A stretch of 64,000 nt of DNA from Enterobacteriaceae endosymbiont of Donacia vulgaris (GTDB taxonomy: Bacteria > Pseudomonadota > Gammaproteobacteria > Enterobacterales > Enterobacteriaceae). The stretch is taken from the NCBI RefSeq assembly GCF_012568445.1, contig NZ_CP046190.1, positions 188,293-252,292 on the forward strand, read 5' to 3'. The position numbers and the translations under genes were made by a program. Below, one piece after another: positions 8,515 to 12,115 of this stretch (position 1 is its first letter; each line of letters begins with the position of its first letter). The notes beneath the pieces are model-generated. The model ran no database searches. It was given only the letters and a program-made list of their open reading frames with translations, and was not told where the DNA came from.

Positions 8515-9297
8515 ATGAAAAAATTTTTGATTATTGCTAATTGGAAATTAAATGGTAATTTAAAATTTATTAACAAAAACATTAATTTAATTAAAAAAAA
8601 TATAAATAATTCGTTATCTTTTTGTAATTTATCTATAGCTCCTCCTTATATTTACATAAATTATATAAATAATTTTTTAAAAAATACATCTATATCTTTA
8701 ACCGCACAAGATGTAGATATTCATATAAAAGGATCTTTTACAGGAGAAACATCAATTAAAATGTTAAAAGATGTTGGTGTTAAATATATTATAATTGGAC
8801 ATTCTGAAAGAAGATTATTCCATAATGAAAATAATAATTTAATATCTAAAAAATTTATTTTAATTAAAAATAATGGTCTAATTCCAATTTTATGTTTAGG
8901 GGAGACAAAAGAACAAAAAGCACAAAATCAAACAGAACAAGTTTGTATTCAACAAATTAATAATATAATTAAAAATAGTAATATTAATATTTTCAATAAA
9001 ACAATCATAGCTTATGAACCTGTTTGGGCTATTGGGTCAGGTAAAAGTGCTGATATTGATAAAATACAAAAAATTATTTTATTTATTAAAAAATACATAT
9101 CTTCATTAAATAATAAAGTAGCAAAAAATATATATTTTTTATATGGTGGTTCTGTTAATTATTCTAATATAGAAACTTTTTTTAAAACAAATATTATTAA
9201 TGGATTTTTAATAGGTAAAGCTTCTTTAGAAATACAAAATTTTATATCTTTAGTTAAAAAATCTGACAAATTAATAAGTTTATTAAATAGATCTTAA
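8515..9297 (+). CDS. tpiA: Triosephosphate isomerase
   Basis: Interconverts dihydroxyacetone phosphate and glyceraldehyde 3-phosphate in glycolysis. 260 residues (E. coli 255). Catalytic set visible: Lys in IIANWKLNG near residue 12, His in IIGHSERR near 97, Glu in IAYEPVWAIGSGKSA near 168, and phosphate loops YGGSV and GFLIGKASL. GAGGA before the ATG is a clear ribosome site. The last 15 bases overlap the end of lysS on the opposite strand, so the two genes end inside each other with no room for a terminator between them. Confidence 0.97.
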   Translation: MKKFLIIANWKLNGNLKFINKNINLIKKNINNSLSFCNLSIAPPYIYINYINNFLKNTSISLTAQDVDIHIKGSFTGETSIKMLKDVGVKYIIIGHSERRLFHNENNNLISKKFILIKNNGLIPILCLGETKEQKAQNQTEQVCIQQINNIIKNSNINIFNKTIIAYEPVWAIGSGKSADIDKIQKIILFIKKYISSLNNKVAKNIYFLYGGSVNYSNIETFFKTNIINGFLIGKASLEIQNFISLVKKSDKLISLLNRS

Positions 9298-10803
9298 CAT
9301 TGGAAATAAAATTACATCTCTAATTGATTGTGTATTAGTAAATAACATAATTAATCTATCTATACCTATACCTAACCCAGCTGTTGGAGGTAATCCATAT
9401 TCTAGTGCTTCTATATAATCTTGATCATAAAAATTTTTGTTAATGTTTTTATTATTATCGTTATCTTTTAAATTTTGTTGTTCTTGAAATCTTTTTTTTT
9501 GTTCTTCAGGGTCGTTAAGTTCAGAAAAACCATTAGCTATTTCCATACCACAAATAAAAAATTCAAATCTATCAGTAAATAAAGGATTTAAATTATTATT
9601 TCTTGATAATGGAGAAATTTCAATAGGATATTCTGTAATAAATGTTGGTTCAATAATTTTATTTGAAATTTTTTCTTCAAAAATTTCAGAAATAATTTTA
9701 CCTTGACTCCAATTTTTATTTATTTTAACTTTCAATAAATCAGCAATTTGTATTAGTTTTTTTATATTTTCTAAATTTTCTAAAGAAAATTGTGGATAAA
9801 AATATATAATAGACTCTTTCATAGTTAATTTATTAAATTTTTTATTTAAGTCAAAAATATAATTATTATATTTTAATAAATGTTTTTTAAATATTTTTTT
9901 ATATATTATTTTAAATAATTTTTCAAATAAAATCATTAAATCTTGATAATCAGCATATGTTATATATAATTCCATCATAGTAAATTCAGGATTATGTTGA
10001 GTTGAAATTCCTTCATTTCTAAAATTTCTATTAATTTCAAAAATTTTATTAAAACCACCGATTATAAGACGTTTTAAATAAAGTTCAGGAGCAATTCGTA
10101 AATATATATTTTTATTATAAGTATTATGATATGTTATAAATGGTTTTGCTAAAGCACCTCCAGGAATATTATGCATCATAGGTGTTTCTACTTCAGTAAA
10201 ATTTTGTTTATACATAAAATTGCGAATATTTAATATAATTTGAGATCTTTTTTGAAAGATATTACGTGTTTTTTTATTAACAATTAAATCTAAATATCTT
10301 TTTCTGTATTTTATCTCTTTATTTTGTAAACCATGATATTTATCAGGAAGTGGGCGCATAGCTTTTGTTAATAAATAGAGTTTTTGACAAAAAATAGATA
10401 AAATATTAGTTTTTGTTTTAAAAACATAACCAACTATACCAACAATATCTCCAAGATCATATTTTTCTAAAAATTTTTTATATTCTTTTAAAGAAATACT
10501 ATTTTGAGATATATAGATTTGTATTTTTCCATTATAATCTTGAATATTAATAAAGGAAGCTTTACCCATAATTCTTAAATTGACTATACGTCCTGCGATA
10601 TTAAGTAATGTTTTTTTTAACAAACAATCTTTGTGATCATACTTTTTATAGATTTCATTTAATGAGATATTAATTTTAAAATTATTAGGAAAAACTATAT
10701 TATTATCATTTCTTAATTCTTGTAATTTTTTATGTCGAAATTTTATTTCATTATTATCAATATTTTTAATATTATTATTAAAATTTTTTTTATTTTCAGA
10801 CAT
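9283..10803 (-). CDS. lysS: Lysyl-tRNA synthetase (class II)
   Basis: Charges tRNA-Lys. 506 residues (E. coli 505). An N-terminal OB-fold that binds the anticodon is followed by the class II core: motif 2 FEINRNFRNEGISTQHNPEF near residue 260 and motif 3 GLPPTAGLGIGIDRLIM near residue 475. TFITEYPIEISPL and NGFSELNDPEEQ bind substrate in the family. It starts 17 bases after prfB, the same prfB-lysS pair as in E. coli, so the two are probably co-transcribed. Its final codons overlap tpiA tail to tail by 15 bases. Confidence 0.97.
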   Translation of the reverse strand: MSENKKNFNNNIKNIDNNEIKFRHKKLQELRNDNNIVFPNNFKINISLNEIYKKYDHKDCLLKKTLLNIAGRIVNLRIMGKASFINIQDYNGKIQIYISQNSISLKEYKKFLEKYDLGDIVGIVGYVFKTKTNILSIFCQKLYLLTKAMRPLPDKYHGLQNKEIKYRKRYLDLIVNKKTRNIFQKRSQIILNIRNFMYKQNFTEVETPMMHNIPGGALAKPFITYHNTYNKNIYLRIAPELYLKRLIIGGFNKIFEINRNFRNEGISTQHNPEFTMMELYITYADYQDLMILFEKLFKIIYKKIFKKHLLKYNNYIFDLNKKFNKLTMKESIIYFYPQFSLENLENIKKLIQIADLLKVKINKNWSQGKIISEIFEEKISNKIIEPTFITEYPIEISPLSRNNNLNPLFTDRFEFFICGMEIANGFSELNDPEEQKKRFQEQQNLKDNDNNKNINKNFYDQDYIEALEYGLPPTAGLGIGIDRLIMLFTNTQSIRDVILFPMLRSI

Positions 10804-10820
10804 AATAAATAATCCTATAT

Positions 10821-11922
10821 TTATAAACCTAATTTTAAACTTGCTTGAATAAATTTATCTAAATTACCATCAAGAACAGATTGTATATCATTAATTTCAA
10901 TTCCTGTTCTTATATCTTTAATTCTTGAATGATCTAGAATATAAGAACGGATTTGATATCCCCAACTAATATTAAATTTTTTTTTTTCTATTTTTTTTTG
11001 TATTTTTTGCTTTTTTTTATTTTGTAATTCATATAATTTAAACTTTATTTGTTTCATAGCTTGATCTTTATTTTTATGCTGTGATCTATTATTTTGACAT
11101 TGTGTTACTAATCCAGTGGGAAGATGTGTAATACGTACAGCAGATTCAGTACGATTTACATGTTGTCCTCCTGCTCCAGATGATCGATATACATCAATAC
11201 GTAAATCTTCTACATTAATAGTTAAATTAATATTATCTTTAATTTCTGGATATATAAATGTTGAAACAAAAGAGGTATGTCTTCTATTTGATGAATTAAA
11301 AGGACTTTTTCTAACTAAACGGTGAATACCATTTTCTGTACGTAACCACCCAAAAGCATAATGACCTATAATATGTAATGTAGATGATTTTATGCTTCCT
11401 ATAATATCTCCAGAAGATTTATGTATTATATTTACTTGAAATTTTTTTTTTTCTGCCCATTTTATATACATTCTCATTACTATTCTAGCCCAATCTTGGG
11501 AATCTATCCCTCCAGAACCAGCTTGTATATCAATAAAACAATTTCTTTTATCATTTTTTTTTACAAAAATTTTTTTCAATTCTAAAATATTTATTTTATT
11601 TTCTATATTGTATAATATTTTTATAGATTCTTTTAATATTTTTTTATCATTAGTTTCAATAGCTAAATTAATTAATTCATTAATATCAATAATCTCTTGA
11701 TTAAGATTATCTAATGATGATAATAAATTTTCTATATTTGTTTTTTTTTTATTTAAAATAAGTATATGATAAAAATCATTCCAAATATTGGGATCATTAA
11801 GTTTATTTTTTATTATTAATAACTTTTTTTGATATTTTAAATAATTAAAGAAACCCCCTAATAAAAATGTTTTTTCTTTTAATTTCTTTTAATTTATTTA
11901 ATATTAAACGGATTTCTAACAT
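10821..11922 (-). CDS. prfB: Peptide chain release factor 2, with programmed +1 frameshift
   Basis: Releases the peptide at UGA and UAA codons. The gene is in two frames: codons 1-25 at 11922-11848 (MLEIRLILNKLKEIK, ending IRGFL), an in-frame TAA as codon 26, then a +1 shift at 11846 into a 341-residue frame ending at 10823. The product of 366 residues matches RF2 (E. coli 365). The SPF stop-codon recognition motif (RKSPFNSSNRR) and the GGQ catalytic loop (SSGAGGQHVNRTES) are intact, with Ser before SGAGGQ where E. coli K-12 has Thr246. AGG lies 8 bases before the ATG. Without the shift only a fragment would be made; this is the normal RF2 design, not a pseudogene. Confidence 0.93.
11845..11859 (-). 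promoter_or_regulatory. prfB: RF2 frameshift site (AGG GGG TTT CTT TAA)
   Basis: On the minus strand the site reads AGGGGGTTTCTTTAAT. Compared with E. coli AGGGGGTATCTTTGAC it keeps the internal Shine-Dalgarno AGGGGG, its 3-base distance to the slippery CTT codon and the stop as codon 26. The stop is TAA instead of TGA. In E. coli the UGA makes the shift depend on RF2 level; UAA is also read by RF1, so that feedback should be weakened or absent here. The sequence is seen directly; the regulatory consequence is inferred. Confidence 0.9.
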
Positions 11923-12042: not shown

Positions 12043-12115
12043 TGGCCCTTGTTGGATTTGAACCAACGACCTAACGATTATGAGTCGTTTGCTCTAACCA
12101 CTGAGCTAAAGGGCC
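12043..12115 (-). tRNA. ileX: tRNA-Ile2 (anticodon CAU, lysidine type)
   Basis: 73-nt cloverleaf: acceptor stem GGCCCTT with AAGGGCC, D arm TAGCTCAGTGGTTAGAGC, anticodon arm AACGA-CTCATAA-TCGTT with anticodon CAT. The body matches E. coli tRNA-Ile2 (acceptor GGCCCCTT, CAGTGGTTAGAGCA, GGTCGNTGGTTCAA) much better than elongator or initiator tRNA-Met. The CAU form reads AUA only after TilS turns C34 into lysidine, and tilS is in this window. The discriminator A is followed by GTT, so CCA is not encoded. Confidence 0.92.

Follow-up and report, generated by a model that had tools for sequence, protein, structure and literature searches.

The prfB locus and its frameshift site

The window, i.e. the whole 64,000-nt stretch of DNA that was analysed, comes from the Donacia vulgaris symbiont, for which Reis et al. 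2020 (PMC7289800) report a chromosome of 460,480 bases and a plasmid of 5,262 bases. The total assembly comprises 465,742 bases and the genome is 99.6% complete. Within the window, prfB starts with ATG at 11922 on the minus strand and contains the cassette AGGGGG TTT CTT TAA T (11859-11844), which interrupts its reading frame (Table 1).

Table 1. Features at and around prfB, in window coordinates
Feature	Position	Strand	Remarks
tRNA gene, anticodon CAT	12043..12115	-	upstream of prfB
prfB ORF1, zero frame	11845..11922	-	25 codons, ends with TAA
Shine-Dalgarno (SD)-like AGGGGG inside prfB	11854..11859	-	computed duplex energy -10.0 kcal/mol
Spacer codon TTT	11851..11853	-	TAT in E. coli
Slippery CTT (CTT T with the next base)	11848..11850	-	
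In-frame stop TAA, prfB codon 26	11845..11847	-	replaces TGA
T as fourth base, 3' of the stop	11844	-	C in E. coli
prfB ORF2, +1 frame	10821..11846	-	RF2 residues 26-366, stop TAA 10823-10821; TIGR00020 434.8 bits
RF2 SPF motif, stop-codon recognition	11298..11306	-	residues 206-208
RF2 GGQ motif, peptide release	11163..11171	-	residues 251-253
Lysyl-tRNA synthetase gene	9283..10803	-	directly 3' of prfB; named from the prfB-lysS order and a reading of the translation

Skipping T11847 yields an RF2 of 366 residues, 191 of whose 365 aligned residues are identical to those of E. coli K-12 RF2. The original prediction of a TAA at codon 26 (11847-11845) and a full-length RF2 with SPF and GGQ motifs in the +1 frame is borne out on both points. 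The RF2 frame is open only 3' of a stop at 11891, and from that stop to the site it contains no ATG, GTG or TTG. The first candidate start in this frame is TTG 11579 (residue 115), which means that the shift cannot be avoided by way of such a start codon; a frame change is needed within the 44-base box that holds the cassette. Full-length RF2 is thus reachable only via the +1 frame, and prfB is single-copy. As in known frameshift motifs, the SD-like sequence lies 3 bases before the P-site codon and an RF2-readable in-frame stop adjoins the slippery codon; the site is not a canonical UGA-C site, as its stop is not UGA and the base after the stop is not C. The motif RGGRGGNNNCTTTRA occurs once in the 64,000-nt window, against 0.05 occurrences expected, and at least once in 5 of 100 shuffles. 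The minus-strand lysS-like ORF (end at 9283) meets a plus-strand ORF (end at 9297) in a tail-to-tail arrangement, with 15 bases common to both.

The rest of the translation machinery was searched across the whole genome. One prfB match exceeded the TIGR00020 cut-off, and the only other match to that model was RF1, so the 99.6%-complete genome yielded none of the second intact prfB copies that would have undone the prediction. RF1, on which the argument about UAA depends, is encoded by a single-copy prfA (464.7 bits vs the RF1 model), and PrmC is present and adjoins it. For RF3, no match in the genome exceeded the cut-off; the best one was a 709-residue open frame, which we read as probable EF-G. 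The anti-SD sequence at the 16S tail is intact (GGATCACCTCCTT), and an exact search for GGNTCACCTCCTTA missed it because the tail reads CCTCCTTT. Two inverted rRNA copies are present (L127 and L128; G000:C1:1002-2174 + and 352175-353347 -), in line with the two copies described by Reis et al. 2020 (PMC7289800), who copied the operon during assembly in every symbiont except that of Macroplea mutica.

A tRNA-Leu(GAG), which reads the slippery CUU, is encoded, and the 30 tRNA matches include a single tRNA-Trp, with anticodon CCA. Window ORFs of at least 100 aa (n=43) end with TAA in 40 cases, TAG in three and TGA in none; with three more stretches added, and under ORF rules slightly unlike those of the first count, the 82 terminal stops were 75 UAA, 5 UAG and 2 UGA. 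Reassignment of UGA to Trp is unsupported: RF2 is present, the lone tRNA-Trp has the anticodon CCA, and TGA-ended ORFs, while rare, do occur (2/82). In the window ORFs, AGG makes up 3.4% of Arg, GGG 5.5% of Gly and CTT 7.5% of Leu codons.

Distribution and conservation of the UAA form

We compared the prfB site in 24 genomes of the genus; the 26 species in the table of Reis et al. 2020 are these 24 plus D. versicolorea and D. semicuprea. The site has TAA in 17 (16 Donacia symbionts and the Neohaemonia nigricornis symbiont) and TGA in all five Plateumaris symbionts, and in both Macroplea symbionts prfB is in-frame and the shift has been lost. These sister-symbiont sites confirm the base, and a TAA common to 17 of 24 genomes leads us to reject sequencing error as its source. 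In the Plateumaris pusilla symbiont (L185), a second interruption of the RF2 frame follows 9 codons past the UGA shift site; it may be a real break, a point of slippage or an assembly error.

An RF2 tree was built from 23 genus and 5 outgroup rows, with the residues just past the site trimmed; the protein trees exclude G002, which has a broken RF2 frame. The 19 species outside Plateumaris fall into one clade (98/95 support), and 17 of them have UAA. Stop identity requires 2 state changes within the genus, or 3 in all with the outgroup branch, and none of 200 shuffles required as few. Plateumaris rows group with only 82/61 support. The Neohaemonia row is long-branched, and in a wider quick tree it is left unjoined to the other UAA rows of the genus, at an open fork. 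At the old shift point, Macroplea has Asn, as at UAA sites (AAT), and UGA sites have Asp (GAT), which fits a change to UAA first and the Macroplea loss later. The simplest history for this single gene would be one UGA-to-UAA change after the split from Plateumaris, followed by one loss of the shift in Macroplea. For scale, the beetle subfamily as a whole diversified over 75-100 million years according to sources cited by Reis et al. 2020 (PMC7289800).

The cassette is nearly uniform among the 17 UAA species. Its first codon is AGG in 17/17, its second is GGG in 15 and AGG in 2, CTT and TAA are invariant, and the SD is thus always AGGGGG or AGGAGG. For codon use in the rest of prfB we counted 16 of the 17 species, leaving out G014 (masked bases). 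There, a single codon is kept in only 2 of 24 invariant Arg/Gly columns and in 47 of 149 invariant columns for all amino acids, and CTT accounts for 13 of the 224 Leu codons in invariant Leu columns. Since the cassette codons are fixed while silent positions elsewhere vary, the cassette is conserved as a nucleotide sequence. The UGA-type Plateumaris symbionts have AGGAGG in two cases, AGGAGT in one and AGGAAT in two, so the SD is broken in 3/5 UGA species vs 0/17 UAA species, although these tips are not independent. Judged from sequence, the UAA form appears to be retained by its clade rather than decaying, and the Macroplea loss is one clear decay event.

In the wider family sample, the strict motif was found in 112 of 198 genomes, and the following counts refer to these 112. 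A TGA match is present in 106, of which 105 are genomes of at least 2 Mb, and TAA is the sole strict match in six, all below 2 Mb. One 5.2-Mb genome (G160) has an extra TAA match that lies off its prfB, whose own site is TGA; motif and prfB places were compared for some rows only. A set of 76 genomes that are reduced or belong to the genus yielded 42 tabulated sites; G021 and G022 are in-frame, and the other 32 are in-frame, degenerate, truncated or prfB-less. Counting the window's genus once per side, the 32 reduced-genome lineages with a tabulated site divide into 13 TAA and 19 TGA. A 43-protein RF2 tree gave 10 state changes, 3 of them forced by starred branches; its poor resolution and the unjoined Neohaemonia row make the number of independent UAA origins unsure. 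A pattern scan of 84,980 genomes returned 55 stretches, of which tblastn placed 20 at prfB, including UAA sites in the GC-rich free-living Thiocapsa imhoffii and Thiobacillus denitrificans RG (fetched stretch GC 0.61).

Several candidate drivers of the change were tried and rejected. In the 41 reduced genomes with a site, stop identity was associated neither with GC (p 0.42) nor with terminal TGA use (p 0.96). Within the genus, terminal TGA use differed (2/147 vs 10/144, Fisher p 0.019), but the difference was unrepeated at chromosome 60000-79999 in 24 genomes (7/246 for UAA-site and 1/75 for UGA-site genomes), so this difference was dropped and low TGA use is unsupported as the reason. RF3 was tested in 13 reed-beetle symbionts of both the UGA and the UAA type and exceeded the cut-off in none, and since the UGA sisters also have no RF3 match, its loss was rejected as the driver; by hand count, RF3 was over the cut-off in 4/13 UAA and 9/19 UGA lineages. 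The fourth base T does not explain the change either, because Plateumaris UGA sites have it too.

Other departures from the usual site were seen along the way. In G209 (L072, L210), neither the SD nor CTT remains, ATT TGA closes the zero frame and a 12-A run lies upstream, making frame correction through slippage on the A run possible. G143 (L046) has GTT for CTT as its shift codon and keeps AGGAGG and TGA, and G030 (L212) retains CTT TGA C with no SD-like sequence. In G100 and G124 (200-300 kb), the prfB cut-off was unmet and the only matches were weaker and RF1-like, so RF2 may have been lost there.

What the UAA site may sense

We consider this to be, more likely than not, a working and obligatory +1 programmed frameshift site of the sole prfB, in a UAA form whose shift would track a weighted sum of RF1 and RF2. 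By analogy with E. coli, the ribosome would pause on UAA with tRNA-Leu on CUU, and the tRNA would slip from CUU to UUU, aided by SD pairing, with peptide release as the competing outcome. As UAA is a release signal for RF1 too, the rate of shifting should track not RF2 alone but RF1 + RF2, with each factor counted in proportion to the part of UAA reading that it does. Simple competition, in our own derivation, gives a log-sensitivity of the shift fraction F to RF2 of -(1-F) at UGA and of -(1-F) multiplied by RF2's share of UAA release at UAA. The loop would therefore not be destroyed, and its RF2-specific part would be set by RF2's share at UAA.

Stop identity at prfB is a main argument for viewing the frameshift as an RF2 sensor, and this is why the substitution matters. 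The original prediction held that a UAA site is partly blind to RF2. With UAA read by both factors and prfA present, RF2-specific sensing would indeed be weakened as far as RF1 reads UAA. An engineered analogue points the same way: at the B. subtilis rsbV stop, Lalanne 2021 (PMC8073009) report that changing UGA to UAA abolished the response to depletion of RF1 or of RF2. This result favours the blindness argument and speaks against the view that nothing has changed, making a loss of RF2-specific sensing plausible. The absence of RF3 could offset the stronger UAA stop, and the same would hold in the UGA sisters.

Almost as credible as its negation, though falling short of it, is the explanation that the site is still an RF2 sensor, with RF2 doing most of the release at UAA and the G-to-A change being neutral under AT mutation pressure. 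Prince, Lin and Feaga 2025 (PMC12421855) argue that UAA sites remain RF2-controlled. The family survey fits as well: TAA in 13 of 32 reduced lineages, vs TGA in the 105 strict-motif genomes of at least 2 Mb (where the lone TAA match lies off prfB), points to mutation pressure or relaxed selection. However, TAA is not tied to lower GC among the reduced genomes (p 0.42, as above), and its presence at prfB in the GC-rich Thiocapsa imhoffii and Thiobacillus denitrificans RG means that AT drift is not the sole source of UAA. The B. subtilis swap, which abolished the response to RF2 knock-down (PMC8073009), also counts against it.

Tentatively, and with a good deal less than even confidence, one can go further and suppose that a single substitution rewired the RF2 loop into a total class-I (RF1 + RF2) sensor on UAA that was kept through the Donacia/Neohaemonia radiation. 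UAA may be tolerated because these genomes close almost every gene with it and hardly any with UGA, and a sensor based on UAA would then track the termination demand that matters, but association tests across lineages gave no support to stop usage as the reason for UAA. If a total-release-factor sensor is the true reading, the Plateumaris symbionts provide its UGA control.

It is unlikely, if conceivable, that the circuit is a compensated one, in which UAA is a stronger stop, selection holds a strong SD to match, and UGA sites can afford to lose theirs. The genus fits this pattern, with a strong SD in 17/17 species with UAA vs 2/5 with UGA (Fisher p 0.0065 on tips), but the tips are not independent and reflect one or two losses of the SD. 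Between lineages the contrast is not significant (strong SD in 10/13 vs 9/19, p 0.15), and duplex energy does not separate the groups (p 0.66 for all lineages; 0.13 two-sided in low-GC lineages), so the strong SD as compensation for UAA is suggestive only.

The original prediction also saw a circuit caught while decaying, i.e. one whose shift has become constitutive and is heading for loss, and this now looks improbable. An in-frame prfB does occur in the two Macroplea symbionts, which sit inside the UAA clade, and the SD is broken in three of the five UGA-type Plateumaris symbionts. Against this, 17 of the 19 clade species retain UAA and every frameshift element while silent positions elsewhere in prfB are free to change, and the SD erosion sits in the UGA clade and not in the UAA clade (with the same caveat on tips), which leaves the decay claim unsupported.

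Production of RF2 with no ribosomal shift, via transcriptional slippage or an internal start, is very improbable: an A6 run does lie inside the frame box (11875-11870), but such a run is short for transcriptional slippage, the first internal start (TTG 11579) would remove the first 114 residues, and the cassette is conserved at the nucleotide level.

If the site is the obligatory UAA frameshift that we favour, the retained UAA clade, its UGA sister and the nested lineage with no shift offer a natural three-way comparison between altered sensing, sensing and no sensing.

Comparison with known systems

Our literature search found no paper on stop identity in reed-beetle symbionts, and neither "prfB" nor "release factor" appears in the main texts of Reis 2020 (PMC7289800) and a 2025 EMBO Reports paper. 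The UAA variant as such is already in print. Among 8,164 motif-bearing genomes, Prince, Lin and Feaga 2025 (PMC12421855) report 98.6% TGA, 1.4% TAA and no TAG, and describe UAA as not broadly fixed in clades. Their CTTTAA motifs are the same variant as the one in the window, and its clade-wide retention in the reed-beetle genus, in 17 of 24 genomes, qualifies the statement that it is not broadly fixed.

Published work bears on how such a site might behave. In one study, described in a review (PMC5009743), 32 CUU-site variants carried UAG instead of UGA, and the 6 in common with a UGA study gave consistent values, which indicates that the shift does not need UGA. For E. coli, Baggett 2017 (PMC5373646) report that UAA is mainly RF1-read when RF2 has Thr246 and is read by both factors with Ala246, and that RF3 loss in K-12 raises prfB frameshifting from ~28% to 47%, with a smaller rise when RF2 has Ala246. 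The matching residue in the Donacia vulgaris symbiont is Ser, i.e. neither of the two.

The engineered rsbV variant (PMC8073009) is alike in that UAA replaces UGA in a cis element that responds to release factors and that sensitivity to RF2 is lost, and unlike in that it is artificial, at a gene-end stop and has no frameshift. Natural parallels exist in Serratia symbiotica (L153, L178) and other reduced enterobacterial symbionts, where TAA likewise replaces TGA; 9 of the 13 UAA lineages have C as the fourth base, whereas the Donacia vulgaris symbiont has T. Another close known system is E. coli prfB itself, which the original prediction took the site to match exactly apart from its stop. That description holds for AGGGGG three bases before CTT, for the stop at codon 26 and for the +1-frame RF2, and the prfB-lysS order is shared too. 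It fails for the spacer codon (TAT in E. coli, TTT here) and the fourth base (C in E. coli, T here), which differ along with the stop itself (TGA in E. coli, TAA here).
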